From assembly GCA_001584585.1 (NCBI GenBank), contig LSYV01000015.1:1318123-1382122 (forward strand): a stretch of DNA of 64,000 nucleotides, in the 5' to 3' direction. The notes under the pieces were generated by a model. The model saw only the letters and a list, made by a program, of their open reading frames with translations, made no database searches and was not told where the DNA came from. The position numbers and the translations under genes were made by a program. Shown here in pieces: positions 7,533 through 64,000 of the stretch. How positions within the stretch are numbered: the stretch's first letter is position 1; each line of letters begins with the position of its first letter. The stretch comes from Gonium pectorale (taxonomy: Eukaryota; Chlorophyta; Chlorophyceae; Chlamydomonadales; Volvocaceae).

Positions 7533-10500
7533 CTACAGATTGCCGGGCGTCTCCCCCAGCATTAGCTTGTGGTCTCCGATCTTTACCTCCATTATCACAA
7601 GGGCCGTGATGGTAACCAGATAAAGCGTCACGCACACGATGCAGCTCCACTTGTCGATCTGTGCCGCAAGAAAGCGCGCGAACCGCGGGTCCTCCTTGCA
7701 GTGCTGGTAGTAGCGGGAGGGTGCAGTCACCTTGGCCACCGCCCAGGCGGGCACGGCCACGAAGAAGGCGCGCAGCGAGGACCGGAAACCGAGCGTGCAG
7801 CAGCCACGGCGAGTGCCTTCACCGCTGGGCTCCGGCTGGAGGGACGATGAGGCAGAGGTCGGGCGGCTGCAGGCGTCACTAGCGGGGCCGGCCGCACTGT
7901 CGGACTGCGGGTTGCCAACCTGGCGGATCGTGGGGCGCCGGCCGACGGCGCCAACGCTCGCTGCAGAGGACGCCGGGCCCAAGGGCGACGCAGCGTGCTG
8001 GGCGGCGGTGATGTCCCCACCGCTGTGCAGAGCGGCGCTGGCGGTCGACTTCTCCGTCATATCAAGCGCGTGCGCGTCCACGCCCGTCCGCATTCCGGAG
8101 CGGTTGCGGGAAAGCCGCGCGGAAGGCAGCTTTGATAGGGACGGGGACGAGGTCGTGGGCGCGCCAGGCGAGTCCGGCGGGATGGAGACCGCCACGTGGT
8201 GGGGCGGCAGGAGCGGCTGATGCCCATACCGTGGGTCGTGCCGCAGCGGTGGTGCGTCGGGGGACGGCAGGGACAGGAATCGGACACGGTAAGCCAAAGA
8301 CCAGGAGGCAAAGTACTCCTCAGCTGCAAGCAAATTTAGGACTATGCAAGTACACCTAGACAGCCAGCGCGTGCGCACGACCTTCGCGGCAGGCCTAGGA
8401 CGACCTATTACCCCTATGAGGGCTATCACAAACGTGCCTACCGCTATCCGCATGGCGCATGGTGCATGACGCGCTCACCCGCCTTGAGGCGGATGTAACA
8501 CTACACAACTCACCTGGGCCTCGATGGCGGAGTCCTGGCGAGCCGGGAAGGCGGTCTCTTCGCCTCCTCCCTTCCGGCCGGAGCCCTGGCCCTGCAGGGC
8601 AGCCTTGCCCTCGCCAGGTGGTGCGGATGCGGCGGCGCCAGTCGCGGTGGCCGTCACGCTGGAAGCAGAGTGGAGGCTGGCGTTCCGCCTCACGACCGCT
8701 GCAGCCGCCGCGGGCCGGAAGCGCACACGCCCGGACGTCCCGCGCTGGGGCGGACTGCGGGATCCTCCGGCAGAGTGCGCAGCGGGGCTGCCGCGGGCGC
8801 TGCCAGGGATGCCGACGCTCTGCTCCCGCCTGATGCATCGTTGTATGCTGGACCTGTGCGCGCGATACGGCATATGGCGTGAGTGCATTGCGCGCATACA
8901 CACGGGACAACGGGTGCCCCTGGGTCGCGCCATTTGTACGGGTGCATCACCGTCGAGCCTGCTGCCGAACGCTTTTCCGTTGCGACGCAGAGACCGTGTT
9001 CTGGGCGGATACGCATGTTCTGTCCCTGCTACCGCAGATGGGCAGAGTTGGGAAGCGTGGGAGCAGCTGCGCAACGCGCGAGCGCCAGTGGAGGCCGCTA
9101 GCATACCGCGAATGTGCGGGTGTACGCGCACCAACCACGGTTCACATTGTCGTACTTACCCCTCAAGCAGCTCGCCGTACTTGGACACGCAGGACCGCTT
9201 GTTGCTGACTGCGTCCGCCACTGTAACGATGCGATTGACGACCAGACACTCGATGCACACCAGTACGATCATAATATACGACACCAGGACCACCTGCATG
9301 CGGCCAGGAGGAGGACAAACGATGCCTGCAGCATCACCATGAGCGCACCGTCAACACACGACCGCCTCACAGTAGGCACTTTCCTGTTGCGTATCACCCC
9401 GCACAGCACAGTTACGTCTGGTGCGGCCCGGGGGGTTAGCACCACATGCAACATGCGGGTATATATGACCGCCTGGCGCAACTGGACGAGAAAGGCGGTG
9501 CGCCTACCAGCTGCAGCGCGTTGAGATAGTTTGCCGGCGGGAAGTCGAACACGAACTGCATGGCCGTCAGCGACAGCAGCATGGTCAGCACCACGCTCAT
9601 GCGGTCGCCCAGAGCGTCTTGCGGCATGAAGAAGACCACGAAGGCGACCAGCGTGATGAGCAGCACGGGCAGGAGGTTGGTCAGCACGTAGTACGACGCC
9701 ACGCGCTTAATCTGCAAGAGGACATCCACACGCACGGGGGAGACATGCGCGTCACCGTGTGCATCCGGTATCCCCGGTACATGACAGTCCATGGGGGAAA
9801 GCGACAGGCATGGCGGCGGGCGGGGCAACCAACACGACCCATGGGTCATTTAATACATGGTGAACCGCATTACCACTGGTCATCGAACCCGAGGCCTCAT
9901 AATCGTGCCGCTTAGGCGTGGATTGTATGCGCGATCGGGTGTTTGCGGCAATAGCTAACGCCAACCATTCTTCACACCTCAGCGCATATCACACCTATCA
10001 GCTATCACTTTCATGCACGGTCCCGCGCGCGTTACAGCCAACGAGTAACACCGGGTGGGTCCGCACCACGCAGGCGCGCGCGGGCCCGCGCACCATGATG
10101 TCCGCCACCAGTACTACAGGTCCGTACAGCGCTAGACTCTCGTCGTACACCTCGCTGGCACCCTCGCCGCAATTGCTTGGGAGGGTTGTCCCGAGTTCTG
10201 TGTTGTCTGGGAAGTAGCGATCGGCCGTCCGGATTGACCGGTAGCGACTGGTGGCATTGGGCGCCGTGACGCCTGTGTAGCTGGGGTAAGGGGCAGGGGC
10301 AGCAGCCAGGTGCAGAAGCAGGAGCAACAGTCAGGAGCAAGGGGCTGGGGGGGGTCAGACATGCCGGCAAGCAGTCAGCTTACCGTACGGGTCAAGGACG
10401 CGTCCGTATGCTGTGTCTGCGCATACAGCACTGGGGGCACTGCATTTGACAGGGTACACGCTCCTCACCTGGGTTCAGCAACGCCGTATTCTCTATAGCA

Positions 10501-13224
10501 CACCCGACTGTCGTACACCTTGCCCTTGGCCCAGTTGATTCGCCATCCACTGAAATCCGGCCCTGTTTATAGTGCATGTGGGCACACGCAGCGGGCACAT
10601 TGCAGCAGGAAGGCGACGGGAAGCAGCAGAGCGTTATGGCAGCGGGATCGACCCCAGGGCGTCGGGGGACGGTAAACAGCAGGGTGGCTGGCTGGCTGGC
10701 TGCATCGTCTGCACGGTGCTCAGGGCTGCGGTCTACCTCCCATCTCCTGCTTCAGCGCGCAGATGTTTGTTTTACCGCCGTTTTCCCATCAGCCCTGCGG
10801 TCCTTATCCATGCGGATACCAACAAGACCAGCCCTCTTCCTCACCCTTCGTGTGCGCCGTGTTGTTCAGCTTGGCCACGTGCTGCCACTTGAGCCCCGCC
10901 ACGCCCGCTTGGCTGTCGTGGATGGCCAGCTCCAGGAGGAGGTGTTGGTGGTCGAACGGATAGGCGCGGTAGTCCAGCGGCGCGTACCTGTTGGTGTCAA
11001 GATGCAAAGGGGTGGCGGATATAGTGCACAGGCAGGGCAGGAATCAGACCGGCCATGGACAGCGCCTTCGGCTAGGATTTCCCTTTATAATCCCGGTCCA
11101 CAGCTCAGCGAAAGCAATTGAGGGCCCAAGGCCCCAAGTACAGCAATACTGCAGGCCGGCGGCAAATGGCGTTCGTCCCAAGCGCTCACCAAGTGCCCAC
11201 CAGCCGCGTAGACCAGGTGACGGTGCCGCTGGTCGAGTTGGCGTTGATGCGCCAGCGGGGCAGCTGGTCCTGCAAGATGCGTTCGTTGGATGGGCCACCA
11301 CTGCAATGGGCATCCGTATGTACATTGCTCGTCCACCCGGACGGGGGCTGCGCGTGGATGTGTTTGTTTTGGCTCCGTGTCCGCAACGATGCGTAGCAGC
11401 TATGTGCTCCGTGTCAGATGCGAGGGCGCCGCTTGCGCATTGCCAGCCCCGCGTTACAGCGGGTACCATGGTACACACTCTGCCGCCTCGTCGTCCCCCG
11501 GAGACCAGCCTACCCAGCCTGCCCGCCAACATCCCCTCCGGCCAGCCCTGGCAACTTTGCTTCAGAGTCCCTCGGAGTGCAGCCTACCCTGCCAGCCCGC
11601 CGCCCCCTCCCCCGGGTTGCCAGGACCTCCCTGCTCGCCCGCCTGGTACGGTTGTGCCCCGCCGTGGCTCGGAAATTATTGCATCGGCCCGGGTCTCGCT
11701 GCCCACTCTGCCACTCGCTGATCCACCGGCCACGGCTCGTCGTCTGTGTGTCACCTGCTTGCCTGCCTCTGTGTGCACCTTGCATGCTTTTGTTTCTTGT
11801 TGTCCCTGTGACCCTGCAGGCGGTGGGGATCTGCCCTCCAGACCGCCGCCTGCACTTTTTGGGCCCTTGTCCCGGGGCTGTTCTCTTTCCCCACCTCTTT
11901 CTTCTCCCCGCCGTTGCCTGTAGGACCCCCTGCCGTGCCCTCTCCCCCGTGGGGTCCTGCCATCTCCACCGAGCAGCCTGCTCCTCCAACAGTCACAACC
12001 GGTCCGTCGGCGCTCGCCTACCGGGCTGGGAGCGCTTTGGTCTGCTTCTGCATGCCGCCATGTCAACATGGCCGTGACCTCTGCCTGCCACACGCCTCCT
12101 GGTTCGTATTTTCTTTCATCATTTACAGCCGAGTGGGCGGGCTGGGCGCACGATGGTCTAGTAACTGCTGAGCGCCGTCAGACCGGTGACCGCGACGACA
12201 ACAACACCGCAGCTCGACCTTGGCAACTAGCGGTCCACCAGGTGAAGTTCGGCAAACCGGGTAATCTGGTAAGCCGGTCTTTGGGGGGACGGGACGAACG
12301 TCACATGTCTTGCTCTGTACCCGCCCGCCCTCTTGGAAACGTCACGCCTTCGGGCGTGTATGGCCGTAGAGGCGGGCTCCCTCTTTATGTGCAGGTTTCT
12401 CTTTTTCACAAACGGGCCGACCGAGTATCCCCCGCAGCTCAACCAGCACGCATTCTCCCACCATTGACGCACTCACACGGAGGCCTCTGCGCACCTACCC
12501 TTCCATCAGTCATTCTCTCCACGCACCGTTCACAGCCTCCGCGTCCCAACCTCGCGCCCTCACCTCATCGTACGCCACCAGGTTGGGCAGCTCGATGTGG
12601 GGCACCCAGATGCCGTCGCAGCAGCCCATAGACAGTAGGCCGCCGCTGTCGCAGAGCCGACTGCAGCTGCCGCCCGGCTGCATGGCGGCTGTGGTTGAGG
12701 TCTCCACGACGCGGCCGGCATTGGCGTCGCGCCAGGCGAACACCGCCCACCAGATTGCCTACATTGCAGCGCAGAACGCAGCCTCCCGGCTTTAGCCGCT
12801 CGCAACATAGGTGTGGGTAGCACGTAATCTTCTTGGGTTGCGTAGCTACATAGGCGCTGGTAGCTTCCATCGTCGGCGACACCGTGGACGGCAGGTGTGG
12901 GCGCAACATCTGCACCCACCCACCCACCCCGTAACCGTTCGCCATCTCGTCGAGGTGTATCATGCGCTCGAGCAGAACCGTCGTGTTGATATCTATCTTG
13001 CTAGCTGGCGCCGTGCCGTCGGACGCCGGAGGGCCGCTGGGGTGCGCAGGGCCCGCATTCGAGGGAAGCGGTCCGTCGGACCCGAGCAGCGGGTAGGGCC
13101 GCTGGCCTCCCGTGAGGAATGGGCCGATGACCGTCAACAGCAGGGCCAGCAGGCAGCAGGTGGGGGCGTGGGCTGCACGCAGCCACTTGCGGACTTGCGA
13201 GTGGAGAGCTGTCGATCGTAACAT
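7533..13224 (-). CDS. Cys-less pentameric ligand-gated ion channel, copy 1
   Basis: Subunit of a Cys-loop-superfamily (nicotinic receptor-like) channel, 752 residues. Exons in transcript order: 13224-12928, 12758-12564, 11269-11190, 10987-10845, 10562-10469, 10280-10094, 9711-9508, 9293-9160, 8754-8514, 8216-7533; all phases agree. A signal peptide is followed by a ligand-binding domain with WVPHIELPN (loop A-like) and YPFDHQH in the Cys-loop position. The two loop cysteines are absent, as in bacterial Pro-loop channels. M1 and M2 are in exon 7 (residues about 339-388), with GDRM before M2, aligning with the cation-channel GEK motif; Leu falls at 9'. M3 is in exon 8. A Ser/Pro/Ala-rich intracellular loop of about 290 residues precedes M4 and the tail KIGDHKLMLG. 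Residues NST in exon 3 form a glycosylation sequon. The agonist cannot be inferred. The tandem paralog starts upstream at 19153. Confidence 0.93.
11270..12563 (-). other. Long intron 2 of channel copy 1
   Basis: This 1294-base intron is the longest in copy 1; the matching intron of copy 2 is only 106 bases (18461-18566). It contains long pyrimidine-rich open frames on both strands, but none has a recognisable domain or conserved composition. I see no terminal repeats or transposon gene in it. Confidence 0.6.
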
Positions 13225-14646
13225 GTGCGTCAGTGGAAGTGACGTTCAAAGTCCACCTAGAAACGGCTAGCGCATCAAGCACACAGAAAGTCCCGCACGG
13301 CGAGTTGGAATTCTGGTGAGGAGAAGCCCGCATTCGCGGTCGTACGCATCGACGCCGAGGCTACGACCTTGGACACGATTCGACAAACTCACAAGGCTGG
13401 AAGCTTTCGGGCGCGCTCATAGTTGCAGTGGTGGAGGAGGAGAGTGCGTGGCTAACCCGCCAAGGGCACGGAAGATTGACCCGCGGGTCACTTTCCTCAT
13501 GTCATGCGTTCAGGCCACCCTTTTTCATGCCTTGGTGTTGTTATGGTGAAAATGGTATCATACTAGTCAACTGTTGGCTACGGATACCGTTCTGTTTCCA
13601 GTTGAAGGAAGTTGTTCGGTACAGCCCCAACATGATTGTGCCTGTGAACCGAAGGTAAACGGAAAGACAGAGCCTGGGATCGCAGCTGGACTTACATAAT
13701 AGCGACATGCAGCCCTGATGATGAGCCCTTGATGAGACGGGCGCGCGGGCTGCATAGTGCAAACATCCACACATGCGGCTCACAACGGGCGAACCCACGT
13801 GGCCACGTACATGTACATCCGCAAGCAACGCACATCCTCATGCCCATATATCCAAGTGTCGATTCACAGCAACGGGTCAACCCTGGATCTGTACTTACTG
13901 CAAAAGAGGTGGCAGACCTACGTGTACCAACGGAAAAAAGCGTAATGGCATACAACCACTCCGATACAGGCTATTCTCATGAACACAACACCGATACTGC
14001 TCTTTGTGGCCAAAGTACGCAGCGGAAGCCATGACCTCCGTGTACACGTGCTCTCCAACCTGTCACGCTGGTTATGTGGCCGTTACCAGCGTACCGCCTT
14101 GCAAAATTATTTAATTTGGGCCTACACACATGCTCCACGAAATATAGACGTGACAGCACCGCTTGAGACCCGAAGATGCCAGACGAGGGTTGCTATCTGC
14201 GTCATATCAATTAGTCACCGTGCGCCGGCGAATAACTTCGAGCAAGGCATGCAAGTAAGCCTGAACAAAAGGGATGACGCATCGCACTTGCAGCGTGGTA
14301 ACGACCAACGACCTGTCCGTGCATAAACGCTCCGACCGTACAACCGCACAACTCGGCAACCCTACAAAGCTGCTCGCCATAGGCGACCGCGCGACAACCG
14401 CGTCCAAACCCGTTGAACTACCCCACTCGCTCTGTGCGCCTTATGCATTACCCACAACTCAAGGACAAGCAGCGCCCCAGCCACCGGCCGCTACGACGTC
14501 TCGAACACCACATCGGGACTCCCATCTGCTCGCAATGGCTGGCGCACACGCCGGGCACCTCGCCGCCTCCCCGCCCCAGACCCCACGCACAGCGTGCCAC
14601 AGCGCCCCACACACGACGTCCCCACATATACCGCCATGGAACGCGG
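13225..14646. other. Spacer between the tandem channel genes
   Basis: Holds the 3' UTR of channel copy 2 and the promoter/5' UTR of copy 1, both on the minus strand. No gene-like open frame is supported. The only minus-strand TGTAA that I see is at 13692-13696, which leaves about 470 bases for the copy 1 promoter. Confidence 0.55.
13692..13696 (-). terminator. Candidate TGTAA polyadenylation signal for channel copy 2
   Basis: TTACA on plus, about 950 bases past the copy 2 stop at 14647. It is the only match that I see in the spacer. Motif-only evidence. Confidence 0.35.
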
Positions 14647-17600
14647 CTACATGTTCCCCGGCCGGTCGCCAAGCATCAACTTGTGGTCCCCCACCTTGAC
14701 CTGCACGTACAGCAGGATGGAGATGCTCAGCACATACAGCGCCACGCACACGACGCAGCTCCACTTGTCGATGCGCGCAGCCACGTAGCGCGCAAAGCGT
14801 GGGTCCTCCCCGCACTGGCGGTATATCGCGCCCGGCTTGGCCGCCACCGCCGCCAGCCACGCGGCCGCGGCCGCGAAAAAGGCGCGCAACGAGGGCCCGA
14901 AGCCCAGTGCGCAGCAGCGGCGGTACACGCCCCTGGTGCCCGACACAAAGGTGGCGACGGTCGAGGCACGGCTGTGGTTGCTGCCGATGGAGCGGCCATC
15001 CTGGTCGTCATGGGGGCTGTACGCCACGGCGGCGTCTCCCACGGCCCACGACACGTGGGTGCGGCCCGAGGCGAACTGCCGGCTGGGGCCCGCAGGCGGC
15101 TGCGGTGGCACCGCAGGGCCGTCGGCACCGCCACCGCCGCTGCCGTCCCCGCCAGCGGGCGGGCCGTCGCCGCCAGCTGATGGGCCGTCGCCCGGGGGAT
15201 GGTGGGGCTCGGGATGTGAGGCGACGCCGCCGTCGACGCTGCTGGCCGCATCGTCGTAGACGCTGCCGCCGACAGTGCTGTTGGCGATGAGGGCGTGGCG
15301 CGAGACGGCAGCGGTGGTGCCGCCACTGCCGCCGGGGACGTCCGTGTGGCTGCGAATGGTGCCATTGTGGGAGTGTACACGCGGCAGGTGGGTGGGAGCA
15401 GCCAGGCCGCCAGCCGGCGCCGGGTCGACCACGATGGTGACATGCTGCGCGGGGGAGCGCGGGGGGGGGGGGGGACGGGGGGTACGAGAGGGCGGGAAGG
15501 GAGCGGGCATCCGATGAGCTGCACTTCAGGTGGGGATCTCCCGGAGATGGAGCGGTGGGCGCTCCTGGGTTCGCTTTACGTTGGAATGCAGGCGAGCAAG
15601 CCGGGTGGCGGTGATCATCGTCACGTGCCCTTCTCTACTAGCTGCCACCAGCTACACATTCACATGTACTCCAGGACACGCGCTGCACCCTCTTCAGCGT
15701 GCGCCTTTCCTGCACGCACGTACCTGCTGCTGCTGGTGTTGTTGGTGGTGGCCACCGGGGGCCGCCGCGGTGCCTCGCTTCAGGGCGGTGGTGGGGCGAG
15801 GGCCGCCGCGCACCACGGAATTGGGCGTCTTGCTGCCGGCCCGGCCACCGCTGGGGCGGGACGCGGTCTTGGGCGAGAGCTCCCGGTGCAGGTAGCGCTC
15901 GAACGCAGCCCTGGAAGCAGAAACGATTCAAGCCGTGCATGTGCCGTGCATGCAGTACATACGGGTCCCTTCTACGTGCCATGACACCCGCCCGCACCGC
16001 GCTTGTCACGCACTGCCGCCAACGAGCGTAGTGCTGGGGCGCATGCTTTGTCGCACCTGAGGCTCTTCCTGGGCGGCTACGGTATCTGATTGCACGGGAG
16101 AGCCCAGGTCAGCTCCTTTCGGCGGTCCACACCCGGCGTCCTCACGAGTCGCCTCCCGTTGAAACTACCGATGCTGAGCCTCTCGCCCTGCACCCCACAC
16201 GCACCGCCCCTCTCGCTGAAAGCCCCTAGGCTGTGAGAACCGCAGGAGTGCTGGTCAGAGGGTCAGCGGGCGGTAAATCATAACGTCAAACCCAGCATCG
16301 GGCACTCACTTGGTCAGTAGCGGCCCGTACTTGGAAAACGCGTTCCGCTTGATGGCGACCGCGTCCGCCACGGTGGCGATGCGGTTCACCACCAGGCTCT
16401 CCACGCAGGCCAGCGCGATGAGGATGTAGGACACCAGCACCACCTGTGTCGGACCGAGCAGTACAAGGAGGGCGGAGGCACGTGCGTGACACGTGTCGCA
16501 CAGCGCACAGTGCGCACAGGCGGGATGCAGAGCGGAAGCTCGGGCGGGCCCTTGGGTGCATGTGCGTGTGCTGCTGCCGTACAGGCCGCCAGCTGGTGAA
16601 ACAAAAGATGAAGGAGCACGGGATCTGGCCCGAATGCCATCGGCCCATCGCTCCTTGCCTCACCATCTGCAGCGCGTTGAGATAGTTTGCCGGCGGGAAG
16701 TCGAACACGAACTGCATGGCCGTCAGCGACAGCAGCATGGTCAGCACCACGCTCATGCGGTCGCCCAGAGCGTCTTGCGGCATGAAGAAGACCACAAAGG
16801 CGACCAGCGTGATGAGCAGGATGGGCACCAGGTTGGTCAGCACGTAGTACGACGCCACGCGCTTGATCTGCAGACAGGTACGGCAGGGCGTCGGCGGGCA
16901 CGGGCCAGGGCAGCTTTCCGTCATTTAGAGGCCAGGAGTGCGAGGATGGACACACCGTTAGGAAGAGGTGGATAGGGGCATGGAGCGAGGCTCCGATGGG
17001 CTCGCTAGAGAGGTGCCCGGTCAAACGCGTTGCGCTTGGCGAACACCATCATTCACAAACAAGCAATTCTTCGTGGCCTCCGAGCCGCCTCACCATTACA
17101 TCTGCAACCAGCACGACCGGGCCGTACAGCGCCCGGGCTTCGTCGTACATCCGGGTGTAGGAGCCACAGTCGTCCGGCTCGGTGGTACCGCTGTCGCGGT
17201 TGTCCGGGAAGTGGCGGCTCTTCATAGTGATGGACTCGTACAGGGCCGGTGGGATGTCGTTGGCGCTTCGTGCCGCGTCATCCGAAGCCGGGTTGTACCT
17301 GCGAGCAAGGGAAGGCACGAAACGGTGCCAAGTGCTTTGCTTGTAGGCGGCTGCCAGTCTCAAGCTCAAGACGGCTTCAGCAGCGAAGCGCGCACCCATG
17401 ATGGAACGCGAGCGTGCGGGACACGCGTCGCCAGGCTAAGATCGACACCACTCTATCGTACTATGATTGCAGTGTTTCCTTTGTACCATGATTGGCAGTG
17501 CGCGGCACCCCACCCTGGGTTCGTGCGCATACACCTGCCACAGAACCGCCCCACGCCAGGCGCAGTTTCCGCACCGCCTTGTCGTACCGAGGTGCCGTGA

Positions 17601-19153
17601 TGTTGTACGCGAGGAGGCACTTGCGACTGTCGTAGATCTTGCCCTTCCCCCACACCATTCGCCATCCCGATACATCGGGTCCTGGGTTGCAAGGTTACGG
17701 TCGCGGGCACGACGCGAGGAGGTCAAGGGCAAGATGGCAGATGGTTAAAGGGGCACGCAAGCTGGCCGGCACTTGCCCGGCCGCGCGCGTCGACGGTAAC
17801 CTAGCTTCACCTACCCTCCCACAACTCCTGCGACCCATCCACGCTCCTCCCCCTCCAACAGCCAGCTACAGACCAGCAGTAGTACCCCTCCCTTCCCTTC
17901 TGAACCCCGGGTGCGCGTGCATGTGCCCCCGCATAAAACCTACCGGTGGCTTCTTCCTACAAGTTCCTGCAAGGCTGGCCCTATTGCTTACCCTTCGTGT
18001 GCGCAGTGTTGTTCAGCTTTGCAACATGCTCCCACTTCAGTGCAGCAAACCCCGCCTGGCTGTCGTGGATGGCCACCTCCAGGAGCACGTGCTGGTGGTC
18101 GAATGGGTAGGCGCGGTAGTCCAGCGGCGCGTACCTGGGACCGACGGGCAGGAGCAACAGTTAAGTAACTTGCGCCGGAGCGGATCTTAATTGCCGCTAC
18201 AGTTGAGCCACATCTCCACGCACAAATGCATTCAACGCCATGATGAACTCGGCATGGTTTGAATCCACCCTCAATGGCAGGCACTTACTGGGTCCGAGCT
18301 AAAAGGCCAAAGGTCACAAGTCCGTCAAAATGGCCTGGGGGTATGCGCCATGGGTGATGCCAAGCCTTCCGGGCGCTCACCAGTTGCCCACCAGCCGCGT
18401 GGACCAGGTGACGGTGCCGCTGGTGGAGTTGGCGTTGATGCGCCAGCGGGGCTGCTGGTCCTGTACGTGAAACCTCCCGCATTGTCGAACACGACACGAG
18501 AACGCCACTGTGTTGGTGTACCCTGAGTGTCGGGGAACTGTACAGTGCGCCGAAGCTTTGCCGTACCTCTTGATACCCAATGAAGTTCATGACTTCGATG
18601 TGCGGCAGCCACATCCCGTCACAGCAGCCCATAGACGCCAGTCCGCCGCTGTCGCACGGCCGGGTGCAGTTCCCGCTCCGCATGAAGGCGGCGGTGGAGG
18701 ACGCCACGGCCGCCCCGGCGTTGGCGTCCGGCCATGTCAGGATAACCCACCATATGGCCTGCAGATGCATACAGCACGTCTTGAGCAGCGTTTGCAACAC
18801 AGCCACTAGCATTCTGCCTAGGCGGCAAGCTATGCAAGGAGCCCCGACAGGGGCCGAGCCGACCCGTGGGTCGCCATACGCTGTCTGGGGCACGCACGTA
18901 CCCCGTAGCCGTTAGCCTGCTCGTCGAGGTGGACAACACGCTCGAGGAGGACAGTCGTTTGAATGTCAAACGGCTGGGTTGTTCCCGTCGAGGGGTCGAC
19001 GGGTAGCGGCCCGTCGGCGCCGAGCAGAGGGTACACACGCTGGGCCGATGCGGCGGGCGCTGCGAACACGAGCAGCAGCCAAGCCGCGGCCTGGCCCCAG
19101 ATGGCCATTCGGTTGCCTCTCGCCTGACGCGGCGTCTGCCGCCAACGGGCCAT
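14647..19153 (-). CDS. Cys-less pentameric ligand-gated ion channel, copy 2
   Basis: Tandem paralog of copy 1, 762 residues. Exons: 19153-18902, 18758-18567, 18460-18381, 18134-17992, 17681-17588, 17298-17094, 16867-16664, 16443-16310, 15910-15724, 15444-14647. All nine introns match copy 1 in position and phase. The signal peptide ends near ASAQRVYPLL; an internal Met at 19108 is an alternative start. The binding domain has WLPHIEVMN and YPFDHQHVLLEV, again without Cys-loop cysteines. M1-M2 carry GDRMSVVLTMLLSLTAMQFV, predicting cation selectivity. The M3-M4 loop is His/Gln-, Gly- and Pro-rich and unlike that of copy 1; M4 is followed by KVGDHKLMLG. Conserved cysteines include CTRPCDSGG, GCCDG, DSRKC and DDCGS. 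The ligand-binding core and pore are close to copy 1, so the two could co-assemble, which is inference. Confidence 0.93.
15461..15474. repeat. Run of 14 G (C on the coding strand) at a splice acceptor
   Basis: On the minus strand this is a C14 tract 14-27 bases upstream of the last-exon acceptor of channel copy 2 (AG at 15445-15446). It serves as that acceptor's pyrimidine tract. Homopolymers of this size slip in replication and in sequencing. Confidence 0.7.
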
Positions 19154-47090: not shown

Positions 47091-50000
47091 ATGGAGAGCC
47101 TCAGCGAGCACGAGGCCATGCGCGTGCTGCAGGCCGCTGCGGCCCTTGACGCCGCGCGCGCGACCTCGGGCTCTCTCGCGCCTGCACCCTCAGGCACCAG
47201 CAGGCAGCCCGCAGCCCAGCCGCAACTGCAGGGCCCCGAAGCCGCGCCTCCGACGCCGAGCCAGGGGCTGGGCGACGACGTGTGGCGGGAGATGGCGGAG
47301 ACGGACAGCGGAACGCCCGAGCAGAAGCGCCTTGGGGACCTGGACTCGTGGCTCGACGTGTTCCGTGCCACGGCCACCATCGTGCGCAACGCATGGACCC
47401 ACATGGAGTGCCTCACGTTTGAGTCACTGGCGTTTGGCTGGTGAGCATGCCAGGCAGGCCGCCTGGCAGGGCGTCGGCGAGGGCAGAGGTGGCGGATGAG
47501 GAATGGGGCGTGTCTGCCGTTTGGCCTACGGATGAGGAATGGGGCGTACCTGCCGTTAGCCCTCCCTGCGTTGGTGGCTCCGGTGGTACGCTGACGAGGG
47601 AGACCGCGGTATGTGCATGCGACGCGGCTGGGCAGGATGCATTTCCGGGAGCGGGGCAGACGGCTGCTTGGCGCATCGTGGCAAAGGCCCAGTCGAGCTG
47701 GCCGCCTTTGCTGCGGCGCAGACGGGGGAGGCGCCTGACTAAGCCATGGCGGTGGCTGTGGCGGAGGAGAGTGTGCGGGGCGCGTTGGGTGCTCGGGCCG
47801 CAGGCTGGCCGCCTCAGCGGCTGGGCGACCCGTAGGCTACCGTGTTGGGCCTGCAGGGTTGGCAGGACCGGCATGCGTCGGACGAGGGAGGCGATGCGGG
47901 TCAGGAGGCTTTGACTGGGGTTCACGCCAGGAAGCCGTGAGCCGATGTGGTGTGGCAGGGAAGCCTGCCGGTAATGGGTCTCGGGCGACTATGGATCAGG
48001 CACTATGGGCCGGTCAGGCCGGGGGGTGGGAGTGTGCCAGGCAGCGTACCGGTAGTGCGGTTCAGGAGTGTGGGGGGTTGCGGGATACGGCATCGGTATT
48101 GTGTGAAGCGGCCGGGCCGTGCGGCTGCCGGCAACGCCATGTATCACTGCCCAGCCCCGCATGCGCCTCACGGAGCCGCTTCTCCTCGACCACCCTTGCT
48201 GCTCACAGCCGCCCTCCGCGCCCGCCCTGGTTCGCCCACAGGCTGGCGCTGGCTCGCAAGCACGAGGCGCTGCAGGTGGTGCCCTCGGCCGCCCCCGGCG
48301 AGGAGCTGGACGACATGTGCGTGGCGTCGCGATCCGCACTCGCCTTCGATCACAGTCGTTGCGCCGCCGTGTTCAATGCCCTCCCTAGTTAACCCGCATT
48401 GCAGCTCTCTGCGGTGGCTGTGTCGGGCGCCGCTGGTTCACCCCATGCAACGAGGGCGGGCGCACACAAAGGCAATAACAATTCCGTCGCGTCATTGCTT
48501 GCGTTCTGCCGGAGCCGGTCAAAAGGTAGCACGTTTGACGCCTCTTCTTGGCTTCTCGGCATGCCGCTGCCTCCCCCGCAGCGCTCCCCTGGCGCACTGG
48601 CTGGGTGAGGCCGCCTGGGCACAGGCGGCCTACACGGCGGGGTCGGCCGAGCAGCTTGCCGGCGTGCTGGGGGTGCAGGTGCGGCCAGCGTGCAAAGGGA
48701 TGTGTGAGGGAAGGTGCGACGGGTCCAAGGGCAGGTTGGTATTTGTATCCTTGCGCGCAGGGGGGCATGTCTGGGCTCGTAAAGCGGGGGGCGTAGCTTG
48801 CGGCTGAGTGACGGCGTGGGTGCGGGGCGACGCTACACAGCGATGGCCAACGCAGTGCGCCGCCCCCTCTGTCCGCCTCATCGCCCTCCCGCCGGGGCCC
48901 GCGAGCAGCCTGCGGACCTGATCGTCTACCAGGCCGACCCGGAGGGCTGGCGTCCGGCCTTCTTCATTGCCATACACCATGACAGCCGTACGGTACGGCT
49001 GGTGGTCCGCGGCACGGGCCACCTGCGAGACCTGCTGACCAACAAGGCGGGGCGCTCGGCGCCGCTCGGAGCAGGTGCGGGCACGTCGCATCCACACTAG
49101 CGCCAGCGCCGGTACTATGGAGACAGAGAAGGTGCATGCAGCTGCGCCATCGTGCCCTGCTGTGTTCCATGTGAAGTGGCGGCGCGTCAGCGCGGCTGAG
49201 TGGTAGTGTGGAGGGTCTGCTTGCCTTCCGTGCCCCGCCCTGCGCTGTCCGTCCCCGACAGCCTCCCTCCCCGCCCCCCACCCCCGCCCCNNNNNNNNNN
49301 NNNNNNNNNNNNNNNNNNNNNNNNNNNNNNNNNNNNNNNNNNNNNNNNNNNNNNNNNNNNNNNNNNNNNNNNNNNNNNNNNNNNNNNNNNNNNNNNNNNN
49401 NNNNNNNNNNNNNNNNNNNNNNNNNNNNNNNNNNNNNNNNNNNNNNNNNNNNNNNNNNNNNNNNNNNNNNNGCAGCTGCTGGCCGGGGAGGCGGAGCGGC
49501 TGCGCGGCGCGCTGCAGGCCGCCCCAGGCTACGGGCTGCACGTGATCGGGCACTCGGTGGGCGCAGGTGGGCGCACGCCGTATGCGGAGGTCGTACAGGC
49601 AGCGGGCCTGCGCTGCCCGCGCCCGAGTCGCTAGCTGCCAACCGCCGGGTGGGGGGAGTAGAGAGGATCTATGCTACCTCGTGCCTCGTTTGCAGAGCAC
49701 GCTGCCCGGTCGGGGGCCGCAGCTGAAGCCCCTCGCGCGTTGGCGTGACACGCCCCGGGTCTCCGCGAGCCGTAGGAGTGCAGGGCTATGCGGGGTGCAT
49801 GCAGGGTCCAGGGCTATGGGTGTACCAACCTTGGACCTCATTCCCTGCTACCATACGCATGCTGCTCCGGCACAGGCATTGCGGCGCTGGTGGCGTTGCT
49901 GGCGGAGACGGAGACGGCCACGGCTGAGGCGCTGGGCCGACCGCCTTCCGTGCGCGCGACGGTCTTCGCCTCGCCACCGTGCGTCACCGCGGAGCTGGCG

Positions 50001-55749: not shown

Positions 55750-58700
55750 TCACGGTGCCTGGGGCTGGAACCAGGTGCTCTGCGGGAAGGATGCCACGTG
55801 CAGATGCGCGCCGCTGGAAGTTGAAACCACAGATTGGGATGCGCGGGGACCTTCCCGCAGCAGCTCCCGCTCCGCGTGTAGGGCTGCCAAGTCGGCGCGG
55901 ACACGCTCCAGCTCCACCTGCAGCTGCCGCTCCCTATCAGCAGCATGGACGGGTTGATACGAGGGTGCGGTTCAGGTTGGGGCCTTTGAGGCAGACTGGG
56001 CAGCCTAAGTAGAACAGTCCGACCGGGTTTGCGCACCGCCTGGAGGTCCAGCTTCCGGTGCACAAGGACACACACTCGCGCCGCGTTCTGTGCATTTCTG
56101 TGCATTCATGCCTGTCACGCACCTGCTCTCGGCAGCGGCTGCAGCGGCTGCAGCTGCGCGCCGCTCCGCCTCGAGCTGCTCCTTCACCGCGCGGTTGACC
56201 GCCTCAGCGGCCACCAGCCGACCCTGCACCATGTCGGCTGCGGCCTCGGCGGTGTGGTGCCCGTCACGAGCCGCCGCCACCGCCCGCCACGCCTCGTCGC
56301 CGGCTGCCTTGGCAACCTGGTTGACAATCGGTGGACCGCGAGCGGGGCCCCTCAGAAGTAGTCCTTAAGCGCGCTACCAACTGCTGGTAGCCTGTGCAAA
56401 ACATAAGCTTTATCAGACGCATCTAGAGCGGTGCCCTGCTCTTCCCGCCCGCTGCCACATGCCCCCGCTTCCTGCCCCCGCCCCCCCTTCTCTACCGTTC
56501 TCCACCCGCCGTCCCCGCGGTCACTCAGCGCACCTGCAGCTGCTTCCTTAGGCTGTCCCGCTCCGCCACTACGGGCAGCAGGTCCGCCGCCATGCGCTCC
56601 GCCTCGGTGGCAGCCAGGGTCGCGGCGTCGCAGCGCTCCCGCTCACGCCGGAAGTTATCGGCGGCCACCGTCGCGGCCTCGCGCAGCGCCGCCACCTGCG
56701 AGTCCCGCATGCGCGGTGGGGCAAGCCGCAGTTGAGTGCACATCCGCGAGCGATACGAGTTCAATTTGCGACCCTGTAATGATGACGATTTCGGGGTTGT
56801 TATGCGGTGGATCGTCCTGCAGCGTCGCCCGTGTGGCCCATCCATGTCTGGTCCGCATAACTTGACGTGTGGTAGCTAGCCGTCTAGCTGCCTCCGGTCA
56901 TGAGCTGATTCCCCATCCCGCGCTGTTGCTCACCTCGCTTTCGGCCAGTTCCGCCCTCTTATGCTGCTTCATCGCCTCCCGCGCGCGCTCCTCCGCCTCC
57001 GCCTGCGCCACCGACGCCGCCTGCCGGGCCTCCCGCAGCTCCGCTTGCAAGTGGGCTTCGAGCTCCGCCGCCGTCTCCGGCCCCCTCCCCGCCGTGCGCC
57101 CCGTTGCCGACGGCGTGGCCGCGGGCGCCCGCACGGCCTCGTTCCTGGGGCTAGGCTGCTGCTGCTGCTCATGCGGCGATGGCGGGGCAGGGACCGGCGG
57201 CCCTCGGTAACCGGGCAGCAGTGACGCCGCAGCCAGCTGGCGCGTGAGGCGGCTGATCTCGCCGTCCGAAAACGTCGCCCGCGCCGCCTGTGCCGCGAGG
57301 TCTTTGGCCTGCTCCAGGGATTGCGCGGGCGGCGAGTGGCAGGTCAGGGCACACAACGCTCTGCGATCGGGCGGCCGCACCCATGGACGCATGCCGCCGC
57401 CACCCCACGATCATCACAACAAGCCGGGTGAACGTACGCAACCGTGAGAGGCCCTCCGTGTGCCCATGCGCGGAGCGTGCTGTTGTGCACCATACCCGCC
57501 ATGCCTGTCCTGTGGTTTCCCCATCCCGACGTGCACCCCATCCAGCTCTGCGCTCGCACCTGTCGGGCCAGCTGCTCGCGGCAGTGCTCTAGCTGCTTGT
57601 CCAGCTGGCCGCAGCGCTCGCGGGCCTCTCGCAGCAGCTGGCCTGCGAGGGGTCCAGGGCAGCTGGGTTGGGCGCAAGTGCGTGTGGGCGGGTGGACGGG
57701 AGCGGGGGAAGCGCGGAGCTGGGCGGCGTGGACGTGGGCTTGCGGCCAGGAACTGGCCCGGACAGGCAGCGGTGTGTGTGTGTGGTGTTGGGGTGGGGGA
57801 CAACCGCTTCAAGGCAACGGGCTCGCATCCAGCAGCATAGGATATAGATGGAGAGCAGAACCGCCGCCCGCTCCCTTACCCAGCTCCTCTATCCGGTCGT
57901 CTTTGTCGGCGCAAGCGACGCACGCTGAGCCGATGTGGAGCGGCCGCTGCCGCGTCTTGAAGGCGGCGCCGTCACTCTCCGCACAAGGCTCCCCTCCATC
58001 GGAACCTTCCCGCGACGCCCCGTGGTCCTGTCCAGGGACGGATCGCGGGCGGATGAGTTGCGGGGGAGGCGAGGGGGGCCACACATACCTGCAGCCGGCA
58101 CGCCCTACAGAGCGCGCCCTTTGCTACGCGGCTAGGCAACGAGAGCAGCTTCACATCATACCACTTCGATTAGAAAGCTGCAAAGAAAGGCCGCCTTGAT
58201 ACGCCCGTTACGTGCGCCCATGCCAACCGCGCCCACGGCAAACTGGGCAGCAGTCGACTGTTCCCACCCCACGCCACTCGCCCTTCTTCCTGACTAGGTA
58301 ACCCTCCCACTCCGGCCGGCCGCCTCCCCGCCCAGCCATCACGCGGCACCCCCCGCGCCCGCCCCACCCCATGCCACTCACTTCCACACCGGCCCTTGCA
58401 CCGGTCGCGTCCTCCCCCTCCGCCGGCAGCGTCCCCGCCCCTGCCACCGCCTCCGCGGCCTCCCGCTGCGCCGCCAGCAGGTACTCCCGCACCGCCGCCA
58501 CCCCGCGCGCCGCCACGGCCCTGGGCGGGTGCACCAGAGGGTTGCAGCCGGACGTGAGGCGGGTGAGCGCCAGCAGGCGGCCCAGCTCGGCGGGCAGCAC
58601 AGCCAGGTGGTTGTTATGGAGCTGCAGCTCGGCCAGCCGCTGGTGGAGCGAGCCTGAGTCGGGGGCGGGGCAGGGGCGGGGCGGGACCGGGTGGAGGAAG

Positions 58701-61700
58701 GGACAATAGAGGCCGGGAGGACAGCTTTGTCCATCGGAGCAGACTACGGTAGGATGGGGTAAAGAGGCGAAGGGGAGGTGGAGGGGCGCAGGGGGTGCTG
58801 GGAGGGGGGGGACCGACTGAGCGGGGTGGGACAGGGGTGAAGCGCAGGGCGGTAAGGACGGCCGGGCCCGTGTTGTCGTGTTGCTGCAAAATGCTACAGC
58901 AGGACATGAACCGACCGCCCTTTTGAGGCTTGAACGCCATACAGCTTCGGGTGTAGTGCCCAGTGGGGACGGGCGAAAGGCCAAGAAGGGCCTGCGCGAA
59001 CCAGTAACGCTTCCTCGCACTCTCCGCGTCACGCTCCAGGGCGTGTGAAGCGGAGAGCGAGGAGCGAAGCAGGCAGGGATGGTATGGACGGGCCGGACCA
59101 ACAACTCGACACGGCCGAGCTCACGGTGCTGTCGTACGCGCCGTATACCGTACCACGCGCATCGCAGCGCAGCCCTCCCACCGCACACACCCGCCGTACC
59201 TATGCTCGCCGGCACGGCGGTCAGCAGGTTGTGGCCCGCGAAGATGGCGGTCAGGCTGAAGGCGCCGCCCAGCTCGGAGGGCAGCGCCGTGAGGCGGTTG
59301 TGGCTGACGTGCAGGGCGGTGAGAGAGGGCAGCCCCGCGGCGGCGGCCGGCAGGTAGGCCAGCCTGTTCCTGTCCAGCTGCACGGCGCAGGCGCGGAGGG
59401 TGGGGGTAGGGGTTGTGGAGGGCGTTGTCAGTAGAGAGAAGCCGGAGGAAGGCGCATGTAACCCCGATCCGGCGAAGGCCGAGCGGCGAAAAGTCTCGGT
59501 AGGAGAGGGGGGGGGGTAGCGTCGACGGGGCAAGGGGCGGGAAGGCACGAGACGATAAAAGGCATGGGCGGCGACCTCCACCCTCCGCCCCTTACCCGCA
59601 GCTCCACCAGCCGCACCAGCCGCTCCATCCGCAGCGGCAGGCACTCGAGGACGTTGTGAGAGGCGTCAAGACTGCCAGGAGGAGTGGAGTGGGGGCAGGG
59701 GCGGGGGCGGGGCCGGGTAAGAGCGGCACGGTAGCCGGGGCGCAGGCATCGGGAGGCGGGACAAAGCGCGGGCAAGCCAGATGTGCAGCGAGGCGTGGGA
59801 GCCGGGGCCTGCGACCAAACGAAGCAGCAGGTGGGTGGGTGGAAGCACTGACGTGGGCGCTTCCATCCGATGTCGCTCCCAGCTCTACTTCTGGTACCGA
59901 ATGCAGGGGCGACAAGGCGCATACAATGGACTACCCGCACACCTTACAGGCGCACGCAACGTAGTTTCCTGCACAGCGTCCCGTAATCGCCAGCATCGCA
60001 AGCCCTTGTCACGCCGGTGATCCGCCAAGCTTCACCACCCCCCTTCCCCAGATGACGCGACGCAAACCGTTTCCCTTCTTTACTTGCCCCTCCCCTGCCA
60101 CCTGGTCAGCGCTGTCAGCTGGCAGAGAGCCTCCGGCAGCGCCGACAGCGCCCCGTTGCGGGATACGTCCAGCGACCGCAGCCGGGTCAAGCAGCCCAGG
60201 CTGTCGGGTACTGCGCGCGGGCAAGGTAGAGGAGGACGTGGCGGGCGGACGTGGGTGTGGCGGTAAACAGCGGTAGGACTTCCGAGGGAGGAGTACTCGC
60301 ACGGGTCCCAGGGGCTGCTTGGAGTGCGCATCCGCGCCCCTAGCCGAGGCAGGCGAACAGTCCTCGCGCCATCAGCTTGCCGCCCTGGCACGACAACTCC
60401 AAGACGTCGCTTCTTCCTTTGCCTTTGCCCGCGTCTCCACCAGCTCATCTCCACAAATGCCGCTAAGCGCGTACTATACGTGCGAAACCGGCCGAGCGCC
60501 CGGCACGAATACCATCCGTCTAGCTGCATGCCCGTTCCTCTTCAAGTTACAAGGAAGGTGTGAGATCTGTCCTGCCCGCCCAAAGGGGCATAAATGGCCC
60601 ACTGCTCCTCGGCCAGACGGAGCTATCTCTATTTACCCTCCTCCCCCCCGCCGCCCCTCCGGCCCAACGCCACCCACACGACTCCAGCAGGTTCGCCGAC
60701 AGGTCCAGTCGCGTGAGGGAGGGCAGCAGCTCCAGCGGCGGGGCTGACCCCAGGCGGTTGCCCTGCAGCTGCAGCTCGAGAACCAGGGATCCCTCTGCCC
60801 TGTGGGCGATGGCCAGGAGGCACAGGGGGACGGGGCTGGCTGGCTTGAAACCGGGCACGGGGACAGACTATCTTACCCACGCCCCGAATCAGCTGCAGCT
60901 GGAAGAAGCCCTCCTTCCCGTGGGCCGCAGCCAGAGGGATTGGGGGATGGGGCCAAGCCAACGCGCGCGGCCTCTCCTGCTAGAGCCTATCCTACCTCTG
61001 CCGCCGCCTGCGCCGCCCGCGGCAATGCCCTGCCAGCCAGTCGACTGGCCGGCGACTCCCGCGGCGCAGGATCACACCCCCAGCCCCAGCGCCTGCGTGC
61101 AGCTGCCCCCTCCACCCCCCACACCCCACCCCAAACAGCCCTGGACGGAGCCCGCCCCGTGGCCGTACCTGAAGAAGCGCAGCAGCGCGGGCGGCAGCCG
61201 CGTGACACCCCGCATGGCCACGTCGCACAGCCCGCCCGCCTGGCAGGCCGCGATGATGCCCGCAGCCGCCGCCTCGCACTGCGCGTCGCTCTCGGTCGGG
61301 GGGTCCCCCAACCAGCCGCCGCCGCCGTAGCCGCCGCCGACACCGTAGCCGGCAGCAGCGGCGGCGTTGCCGCTCTGCGGGGCAGCGTCCTGCAGGAGTC
61401 GCTGCACGTAGCTGGCGCCGCCGTCGGCGGCTGATGCCGCCGCCGCCCCGGCGGCGGCGTTCAGCGCCAGGTGCGTGGGCGGGCCTCGGCTGACTGCGGT
61501 GTTGGCGGCGTCGTAGCCACTGCGTTGTCCTAAGGCTTCGAAGTCGCCACGAGGTTCGGAGCCCCGACTCCGTACCGCAGCGGGCAGTGAACTGTATGAG
61601 TAGCGGCCGTTGGAAGTTTTGGAGAAGCCGCTGCTGGCGGAAATGCCACCAAGCTGCCCGGCGGCCGTCCGGCTGGGGCCTACACTGCCGCTGCTGCTAT

Positions 61701-61968: not shown

Positions 61969-62335
61969 GATCTTATTCGTATTTATCCTATGTCATATTA
62001 TTCTGAGGTTACACATGGCTGCAAAGTTCGAAGGCTACGACCTTGGCACGATTTCAGGCCATGAATTCATATATTATTGCTAAAATGGGCTGATCGACTG
62101 ACCTTGCCACGTATTGTGGCTCTTTGCTTGCGTGTCGGTTGCATGGTGCAACCACCACCTGCCACCTAACCGTGCCGCGACTCAAGCCCTAAGGGACCCC
62201 TACACCCTGTCATGAACTGCAGCGGTAGAATGGGAGAGCTAACACTGATGCCCTCCCCACTCGCGGCCATGACCACCCGTTGCTTTGCGGCGCCCAGTAA
62301 CAAGACTTCAGTTCACCAAGGACATTAGGCGTGGA
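61969..62335. promoter_or_regulatory. Divergent promoter region between LRR gene and TcdA-like gene
   Basis: 367 bases between divergent starts. It is AT-rich around 61965-62085, with ATATT and TTATTC words. A small open frame starting at ATG 62264 (MTTRCFAAP, stop near 62328) overlaps the 5' side of the TcdA-like gene and may be an upstream ORF in its leader. Confidence 0.4.
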
Positions 62336-64000
62336 ATGCGTGGTGTATTAATCAATTCCTATAGCAGCAGGTCTGCCCTGCTGGAAGCGGGCCCTCCAAA
62401 CGGCGCCATTTGCCGCACCTGTGGCCATTCAGCCCAATTACAAGGAAGACACCCTTTGGTCCCCAGCGCGGCTGTCAGCCGGGCACCAGACGCGTCGTCG
62501 GGCCGACCGATTGCGCACCGTCGCGCGCACTACGCGCATCACAAGCCGCGCGACTTGCCCATTTCGCCGCGGGGGCCTGACTTGAGTCAACGGGGTCGCA
62601 CGGCGGCGGCTCTGGCGTCTGTTGCCGTGGCAATACTCGCAGATGCTGCTGGTATCCGTGACGGCGGCGCTACGGCCGGCTCGCCGCAGCACAGCGCCCC
62701 GACGGGCCTCGCATCTGCTGACGCCAGCGCCTGTCGTGGCGTCAGCCGCGAGGTCCCTCAGGCCGTCTCGTCAGCCTCGCACACACACAACCCAGTACGG
62801 CACTCGCCGCCATCCTCATCGCCAACTGAACCAGCTGAACCAGCCGCAGAACCGGTGGCAGCCTCGGCGGCAGCACAGCCCGCGCTTGCCTCGCAGCCGC
62901 TCGATTCAAACCTTGGCCTGGATCCGGATCCCAAGCCCGAGGCGGAGTCAGGTCCCGAGCCCGACTGGCTGCAGCGCACGACGCTGCTGCTGGGGCCCGA
63001 CGGCGTGGCGGCGCTTGCGGCGCGGCGGGTGGTGGTTGTGGGCCTGGGCGGCGTCGGCTCCTACGTGGCCGAGTTCCTGGTGCGGGCCGGCGTGGGGAAC
63101 ATGGCCATCGTGGACGGCGACGTGGTGGACGTTACCAACAAGAATCGCCAGGTACGGTTGACGGTCAACGGCCGACGGTTGCCGGTTGGTCGTGGGGGCA
63201 GTCAGCCGACCGCCGTCGGCTGGGAGCGCAGAGGTGAGGGGGGTGGGGGCGAGCGCCAGCTGGGTCGGGAGCGCTGGTGAGGCCTGTGGCGGGCGGGGGG
63301 GGTCCGGCTTTCCGAGCAGACGGCGGGCGACGATGTGCGGAAGAAGCGCCGACGCCCTCCCGTGTCCCGTCCCTTCCCCCTCCCCCGCCCCGCCCCCGGC
63401 CCCTCATCGTCTCCGCAGCTGCCCGCGCTGGACTCCACCGTGGGTCAGGCCAAGGCACAGGTGATGGCTCGCCGGCTGCTGGACATCAACCCGCGGCTCA
63501 ACCTGGTGGTGCGGCAGGTGGGGGGCAGGCCGGGCAGCGACGACGGGGGCTGGGTGTTGAAATGAAATACGCGTACGACGAGCGCAAGCGCTGGGTGTGT
63601 TATGTATGCGTGACGGAGTGCAGAAAAGCAAGCCTAAAAGGTAGCTAGCAAAGGCAGCAGCCCGGGGGCTGGGTGTGTATGTCTGGGTGGTTGGATGGAT
63701 GGGTGAATGGGTGGGTGGGAGGTGAGGAGGACGGGGGCGGGGGGGGGGGATGAGGAGCTGGGGTCCGAGGCGCTGAGGCGGGGCAGAGGCGCCACCCCAG
63801 CGCGTGGCCGGTGGGCCGGTGGGCCGGTGGGCGTGCGGGCGACCGCCCCGTTACGAGCGCCGCATCGGGCGCTGTGACGCGCCGCCCACACACACACACA
63901 CACATGCGGTGGTCGCCGTGGTCGCCGTGGTCGCCGGTCATGTGGTGGTTGTCGGTCACGTGGTGGGCCCCCGCCGCAGGGACATCACCCCTTCGAATCC
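62336..64000 (+). CDS. TcdA-like tRNA threonylcarbamoyladenosine dehydratase (ThiF/E1 family), 3' truncated
   Basis: N-terminal part of an E1-like adenylating enzyme; the window ends inside it. Exons: 62336-63151, 63419-63517, and probably one starting near 63980. Residues about 1-200 are Ser/Ala/Pro-rich with early hydroxylated and basic residues, so an organellar transit peptide is likely. The catalytic domain begins with DWLQRTTLLLGPDGVAAL, followed by the nucleotide-binding VVVVGLGGVGSYVAEFLVRA, IVDGDVVDVTNKNRQ and LDSTVGQAKAQVMARRLLDI NP. The order and the N-x-N-R-Q motif match TcdA/CsdL, which converts t6A37 to its cyclic form in tRNA, rather than ubiquitin E1 or MoeB. The last exon could read DITPSN, like the TcdA segment after the INP motif, but its phase does not follow from the 63517 donor, so an exon may be missed between 63518 and 63979. 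Confidence 0.82.
63807..63935. repeat. Cluster of simple repeats in a TcdA-like gene intron
   Basis: Contains three GGCCGGTG-type units at about 63807-63830, a (CA)9 run at 63887-63904 and three perfect copies of GTGGTCGCC at 63909-63935. Upstream, 63672-63722 is a GGTGGATG/GGTGGGTG-like stretch. All lie between the exon ending at 63517 and the acceptor near 63979. Confidence 0.8.

Follow-up and report, generated by a model that had tools for sequence, protein, structure and literature searches.

Cys-less pentameric ligand-gated channel genes in Gonium pectorale: a small gene family with a probably converted pore exon

Two adjacent channel genes on the minus strand

The window considered here, a stretch of 64,000 nucleotides from contig LSYV01000015.1 of the green alga Gonium pectorale, contains two adjacent genes, A and B, which on their predicted products encode subunits of Cys-less pentameric ligand-gated ion channels (pLGICs). 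Gene A occupies 7533..13224 and gene B 14647..19153; both are on the minus strand (A being read from 13224 to 7533 and B from 19153 to 14647) and comprise 10 exons, with 811 and 762 codons, respectively, plus a stop codon. The proposal of the first-pass annotation that two complete genes lie here on the same strand is thus borne out by full-length frames of 811 and 762 residues. Its green-algal setting likewise agrees with the genome, which has 54 matches to PF12499 (DUF3707), the pherophorin domain that characterizes volvocine algae, and 4 matches to RuBisCO small-subunit exons.

The gene models were put together manually on the basis of splice sites and open frames, with the likeness of A and B guiding the choice of sites. 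All 18 introns have GT-AG borders, and the intron phases (0,0,2,1,2,0,0,2,0) are identical in the two genes. The exon lengths are 297, 195, 80, 143, 94, 187, 204, 134, 316 and 786 in A, and 252, 192, 80, 143, 94, 205, 204, 134, 187 and 798 in B, i.e. exons 3, 4, 5, 7 and 8 are of equal length. Agreement in position and phase had been claimed for all nine introns; this holds for introns 1–8, which sit in alignable sequence, but for intron 9, which is located within the unalignable M3–M4 loop, phase alone is comparable. The acceptor of A intron 9, preceding the last exon, is uncertain, having been picked among candidates, and its choice touches only the low-complexity cytoplasmic loop. The chance of a frame staying open for so long, about 1e-10 for A and 4e-10 for B in a simple composition model, overstates the case because exons were picked to keep the frame; it is the profile matches described below that carry it.

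The exons follow the order of the expected structural elements. Exon 1 (12928..13224 in A, 18902..19153 in B) encodes in A, as judged by alignment and hydropathy, a signal-like stretch and the conserved N-terminal sequence QRPYPLLGSDGPLP. Exon 2 (12564..12758 and 18567..18758) contains in A the start of the binding domain, with a WxD motif and a four-cysteine stretch assigned by alignment. These are followed by the short exon 3 (11190..11269 and 18381..18460), by exon 4 (10845..10987 and 17992..18134), in which the aligned Pro-loop, YPFDHQH in A, has no flanking cysteines, and by exon 5 (10469..10562 and 17588..17681). Exon 6 (10094..10280 and 17094..17298), on the pattern of invariant columns, covers a divergent putative loop C region, which in A is enlarged and followed as far as β10. 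Exon 7 (9508..9711 and 16664..16867) encodes M1, M2 (the pore) and, in A, the M2–M3 loop; exon 8 (9160..9293 and 16310..16443) encodes M3, as supported by hydropathy. The cytoplasmic loop begins in exon 9 (8514..8829 and 15724..15910) and continues into exon 10 (7533..8318 and 14647..15444), which also encodes M4, placed by hydropathy, and an aligned conserved C-terminal tail (GDHKLMLG in A).

Intron 2 comprises 1294 bases in A compared with 106 bases in B. Within A intron 2, at 11478..12406 on the minus strand, a genome search identified a high-copy repeat with at least 55 matches in the genome (1368 candidates at first look, of which 40 were scored).

Domains and superfamily signatures

Binding and membrane domains had been proposed for both products, and the profile search upheld this: A and B score above the curated cut-offs of both Pfam Neur_chan_memb (8.6e-11 and 2.4e-10, respectively) and Neur_chan_LBD (8.5e-7, 29.1 bits, and 5.7e-6, 26.4 bits), in the latter case narrowly above the cut-off of 26. 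With loops trimmed, both profiles matched, at E up to 0.1, all four of A, B and two related genes, C and D, which are described below; NCBIfam TIGR00860 LIC also matched in 4/4 (best 1.1e-23), below its curated cut-off where shown (69 versus 280 bits for B). Pfam also gave, for A, a weak match to TMEM135_C_rich (0.012, below the cut-off), which was disregarded.

The residues reported to be most conserved in the superfamily (Jaiteh et al., Table 1, PMC4795631) served as criteria for membership. Invariant in A–D are the YPFD of the Pro-loop ([F/Y]PxD, in the β6–β7 loop), the pre-M1 arginine R325, the M1 proline P337 and the M2–M3 proline P380 (B numbering), together with Arg 0′ and Leu 9′ of M2, all of which align with the same residues of GLIC-chimera/GABA-A chains. 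W229 is also invariant and is set by HMMER four residues off the β9 Trp of the structure. The Cys-loop cysteine pair is missing from all four proteins, Ala being present at the first place and Leu, Val or Met at the second; both places were located from the spacing of Cys-loop cysteines. Other cysteines are common to A–D: exon 2 has four, and exons 5 and 6 have one each, the last two lying around the enlarged putative loop C region.

The M2 stretch GDRMSVVLTMLLSLTAMQFVF, with Asp at −1′, Arg at 0′ and Leu at 9′, is identical in A, B and C and differs by one change in D. The sequence ALGDR places an acid at −1′, next to Arg 0′; GDR is present in 4/4 and is close to GE[K/R], given as the cation motif before M2 in PMC4795631.

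In both A and B, hydropathy analysis placed four membrane-like segments downstream of the binding domain; of these, M1–M3 are matched to solved channels. A signal peptide had been ascribed to both products; a signal-like stretch exceeds the threshold in A, but not in B. The long cytoplasmic loop described at first pass is present, with approximately 333 residues between M3 and M4 in A and 294 in B, and is rich in Ala, Ser, Gly and Pro. In the C-terminal tail, 10 of 15 columns are invariant in A–D.

Searches against solved structures gave 310, 231 and 210 matches, of which 60 were listed. Among the matches listed, the best chains are from GLIC chimeras, GABA-A β, GluCl, ELIC and two larger LBD-containing channels, and in the membrane-domain search GluCl and GABA-A are best, with nicotinic chains lower. 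The first-pass assignment to a 'nicotinic-receptor superfamily' is right in so far as a pair of pentameric ligand-gated channel genes is present, but 'nicotinic' is too specific given the lower scores of nicotinic chains among those matches and the missing Cys-loop cysteines. Judged by these signatures, A and B belong with the Cys-less (Pro-loop) pentameric ligand-gated channels rather than with the nicotinic receptors.

A wider family in the genome

The description of A and B as a tandem pair is correct in that they are adjacent, but on sequence comparison they belong to a family that numbers at least five genes, with a sixth, divergent one in addition. The other members came from searching the 128.9-Mb, 352-contig assembly with residues 1–435 of B, which gave 37 matches, and from spliced alignments; this protein query was the most effective of the genome searches. 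A profile search with Neur_chan_LBD alone gave no match in the genome, as was also the case for control genomes, and one with Neur_chan_memb gave 4 places, 3 of them above the cut-off. With A and B as queries, respectively, spliced-alignment scores were 1805 and 2067 for C, 1752 and 1667 for D, 310 and 305 for E, and 366 and 336 for F, compared with 156–192 for four control stretches of the window aligned to B (the intron penalties, 12 versus 9, being such that conditions were not strictly equal).

Gene C is on the same contig and strand as A and B (contig positions 1303101-1307898, minus strand), 17.8 kb beyond the A stop codon and 10.2 kb outside the window; gene D is on another contig (316548-322920, plus strand). 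Exons 1–8 of C and D are open and GT-AG spliced, and their M4 exons end in TGA (C) and TAA (D). In the loop region of C, which holds 20 N, the aligner passed a stop codon with A as query, but not with B. Introns absent from A and B interrupt exon 2 of C (one intron) and exons 1 and 7 of D (two introns); D intron 4 is of phase 2 in the model, compared with phase 1 in A and B. Such differences would represent gains or losses of introns within one small family.

For gene E, on a third contig, exons 1–2 are present, followed by a run of N of approximately 6.8 kb. These exons match Neur_chan_LBD at 0.028, under the cut-off, and spliced alignment past the gap scored 142 (plus strand) and 153 (minus strand), below the four controls, so yielding no remainder of E there. 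Gene F, on a fourth contig, encodes a divergent channel: the match of its M1–M2 exon to Neur_chan_memb, at 1.8e-4, falls short of the cut-off, and this exon with part of M3 matches solved bacterial channels at 1.2e-8. The M1–M2–M3 piece appears nearest to bacterial channels such as ELIC. An open frame upstream in F has a Pro-loop-like FPMDCQ, with no Pfam match, and a piece related to the A intron-2 repeat was seen by eye near F.

Silent-site identity and homogenization of exon 7

Fourfold-degenerate sites were compared exon by exon for exons 1–8 of A–D; exons 9–10, genes E and F, and any column with a gap in A or in either member of the pair were excluded, and exons 1, 2, 4, 5, 6 and 8 were pooled for comparison. 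Since sites and pairs are not independent, the Fisher P values that follow are to be taken as guides. In the pooled exons fourfold identity is 51/108 for A-B, 51/97 for A-C, 58/124 for B-C, 52/99 for A-D, 39/98 for B-D and 37/91 for C-D. In exon 7, the linked genes give 38/39 (A-B), 35/40 (A-C) and 33/39 (B-C), in excess of the pooled exons with P values of 1.9e-9, 6.5e-5 and 1.9e-5, respectively, compared with 22/33, 21/33 and 22/33 for A-D, B-D and C-D (P 0.11, 0.015 and 0.0089). The excess of A-B over the pairs with D in the same exon has P 2e-4 to 5e-4. Chance identity from base composition is 0.33-0.39, implying that the duplication is old and the exon 7 likeness of A and B recent.

The longest identical runs in exons 1–8 give a similar picture, i.e. 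129 nt in A-B, 128 in B-C and 104 in A-C, compared with 38 in all three comparisons involving D. Between A and B, blastn gives 10 matches, every one located on an exon; that of exon 7 (96.7% over 211 bases) extends past the exon by only 5 and 2 bases, and that of exon 3 (94.5% over 91 bases) by 3 and 8. In the last two exons, fourfold identity of A and B is 7/18 (exon 9) and 14/43 (exon 10). The simplest reading, which is well supported by the silent sites, is that exon 7 of A and B was homogenized by gene conversion limited by diverged introns; participation of gene C is suggested by its silent sites. The first-pass view of high core identity with differing loops is thus accurate as description, since a conserved core and divergent loops are present, but constraint alone does not appear to account for it. 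Conversion via spliced RNA copied back into DNA is unlikely: such a copy would join exon 8 directly to exon 7, yet A and B show no homogenization of exon 8 (11/20), though B-C has 16/21.

A shared pore exon and divergent putative sensor regions

The distribution of invariant columns in A–D is uneven. Exon 7 has 56/68, exon 4 36/48 and exon 3 18/26, compared with 20/59 in the mature part of exon 1, 28/65 in exon 2, 13/31 in exon 5 and 20/44 in exon 8; exon 6, with the putative loop C, is among the most divergent (23/70 invariant, 16 columns gapped). The divergence of the loop C region, the N terminus and the long cytoplasmic loop implies that what distinguishes the copies is probably ligand or regulation rather more than conduction, and that they may combine one shared pore with different sensors. 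This divergence could equally reflect relaxed constraint.

These observations can be combined into a mechanism, which we consider likely as a whole, in which A and B, with C nearby and D and E elsewhere, encode Cys-less pentameric channel subunits with a cation pore, a pore exon kept uniform by conversion and diverging sensors. Five subunits would form one channel, with an extracellular ligand binding near loop C, where adjacent binding domains meet. Ligand binding would be coupled by the YPFD Pro-loop and the pre-M1 arginine to the M2 pore, which would open to cations; that the channels are cation-conducting is probable from the residues preceding M2. Recent gene conversion would keep the pore exons of A and B near-identical, C probably having taken part, while the loop C region, N terminus and cytoplasmic loop diverge.

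Several observations, concerning both conversion and function, weigh against this proposal. Silent identity of exon 7 with the unlinked D is itself raised (64-67% versus 40-53% in the pooled exons), and the 38-nt run shared with D in exon 7 exceeds that in shuffled sequences (P about 0.0005-0.0015). This excess with D implies that part of the signal reflects constraint or older events. The A-C and B-C values in exon 7 are barely above those with D (P 0.03 for A-C, 0.04 and 0.07 for B-C). The B-C likeness in exon 8 shows that, in at least one pair, resemblance extends beyond exon 7. For exon 3, A-B, A-C and B-C give 14/16, 14/17 and 14/16, compared with 7/11, 7/10 and 8/11 for A-D, B-D and C-D, with no clear difference of A-B from the pairs with D (P 0.16 and 0.27), such that evidence for exon 3 as a conversion tract in A and B is weak. 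A reading in which the likeness of exon 7 in A, B and C is due to strong constraint only (on protein, codon use or splicing signals), with no conversion, would accommodate the D values and the high GC content at third positions (GC3) of exon 7 (0.93 in A and B). It is nonetheless improbable: exon 7 of D encodes nearly the same protein (57-58/68 residues alike), with far less silent-site likeness than A-B; exon 4 is also conserved and has a GC3 of 0.94 (A) and 0.83 (B), yet only 12/20 fourfold sites are identical in A-B (P 4e-4 versus exon 7); and identical runs of >100 nt occur in the three linked pairs, but in 0/3 pairs with D.

With regard to function, the silent sites outside exon 7 are near saturation, so the ratio of nonsynonymous to synonymous substitution (dN/dS) cannot tell whether the divergence of loop C was selected. 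Of the M1–M4 segments proposed at first pass, all four stand as hydrophobic segments and M1–M3 match solved channels, but M4 gave no sequence match to solved channels, its two hits (E 1.5 and 2.3) being weak and unrelated, and is assigned from hydropathy and position. Spliced alignment does not resolve the cytoplasmic-loop exons in C or D; this, with the stop codon crossed in one C alignment, the incomplete state of E in the assembly and the repeat in A intron 2, might suggest that the additional copies serve dosage only or are in decay, and that their functions have not diverged. We regard this as doubtful, as the frames of A and B are open to the stop codon, C and D have open exons 1–8 and a stop codon at the end of the M4 exon, and E is broken by a run of N rather than by a known lesion. 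Moreover, outside exon 7 silent sites have diverged far more than the protein has, e.g. in exon 4 of A-B 43/48 residues are alike, compared with the 12/20 fourfold sites. The M1–M2 linker aligns ungapped to GABA-A-type anion channels, having the same length as in the aligned GABA-A and glycine-receptor chimera chains, and that of the nicotinic receptor is one residue shorter than in A/B; the best membrane-domain matches among those listed are GluCl and GABA-A. These features raise the prospect of an anion pore like those of GABA-A or glycine receptors, though an acid at −1′ is the usual determinant of cation selectivity. Such a pore is rather unlikely, because A and B have Asp at −1′ and Gly at −2′ instead of the Ala and Pro of the anion motif (PMC4795631). 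It is also conceivable, albeit not the option that we would choose, that the conserved pore keeps subunits compatible, such that A, B and C co-assemble as heteromers, an arrangement suggested at first pass; the identity of M2 in the three and their linkage on one strand are consistent with this. The extracellular subunit interface, however, matters too, and exons 1, 2, 5 and 6 are more divergent; conversion could, moreover, arise from proximity alone.

A more speculative proposal, which we put forward tentatively, is that the linked copies constitute a protist chemoreceptor array, in which one interchangeable pore exon is kept uniform by conversion and loop C is free to diversify, giving one output with different ligands. 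If so, a sensory system of this kind would parallel, in an alga, the way in which receptor subunits have diversified in animals. The chemosensory or ciliary role suggested at first pass would be a candidate function. The locus may also be a natural example in which conversion preserves the pore exon as the binding domain goes on diverging.

Relationship to known channels

The nearest known system is that of the protist Cys-less pLGICs, including those of Chlorophyta (PMC4795631), which are of the same superfamily and have a YPxD Pro-loop lacking cysteines, the M1 and M2–M3 prolines and, in part, a green-algal origin; that account, in which 'tandem' occurs 0 times in the main text, describes no gene array or conversion in the portion consulted. 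Bacterial pLGICs, including GLIC and ELIC, likewise have a Cys-less Pro-loop (PMC4795631), and a GLIC chimera is the best solved-structure match among those listed. By contrast with GLIC/ELIC, A and B have a signal-like leader (in A), an M3–M4 loop of approximately 300 residues, an enlarged putative loop C region, extra conserved cysteines and introns. GABA-A β and GluCl give the best M1–M3 matches among those listed, with an ungapped M1–M2 linker in the GABA-A alignments; A and B differ from them in the absence of Cys-loop cysteines and in that Asp replaces Ala at −1′. The nicotinic acetylcholine receptor has, like A and B, an acid at −1′, a basic residue at 0′, Leu 9′ and a long M3–M4 loop. 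A and B, however, lack the Cys-loop, and the match is weaker (2bg9_B, 1.2e-5, over M1–M3).

The group to which this alga belongs is genetically tractable, and a linked family with a shared pore and divergent putative sensors provides a concrete gene set for knock-out and recording. The absence of pentameric channels from land plants, on which the first-pass annotation relied, is stated in both PMC4795631 and PMC11085791. The former reported chlorophyte members of the superfamily in 2016 (naming Chlamydomonas and Chlorella) and their absence from multicellular plants; the latter describes land plants as lacking pLGICs and many such channel types as being present in chlorophytes. According to Jaiteh et al. 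(2016, PMC4795631), no biological role was known for any pLGIC of a unicellular organism. Among the matches listed, a Chlamydomonas salinity transcriptome (PMC11355073) was the sole additional paper recognized as bearing on algal channels of this kind, in one salinity comparison, and the consulted portion of PMC7935092 contains nothing on them. Among the matches listed from open-licence full texts, no description of such a gene array or of pore-exon conversion was found. The kind of channel was thus already known in chlorophytes; what is new is the enlargement of the pair to a family and the proposed mode of evolution, i.e. conversion of the pore exon.

Neighborhood of the genes in the window

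The word TGTAA, which we take to be a polyadenylation word, is present on the minus strand approximately 0.7 kb beyond the end of A and 0.95 kb beyond that of B; the window has 48 matches to it versus 36 expected (3 of 100 shuffles reach 48), and these are not evidence for either gene. A run of 181 N at 49291-49471 is either an assembly gap or masked sequence. The window has 161 unspliced open reading frames of at least 150 residues, a poor net for genes, of which 16 were scanned against Pfam. Above the cut-off among these 16 were only a leucine-rich-repeat frame (58208-59665, minus strand) and a ThiF-domain frame (62273-63280, plus strand).

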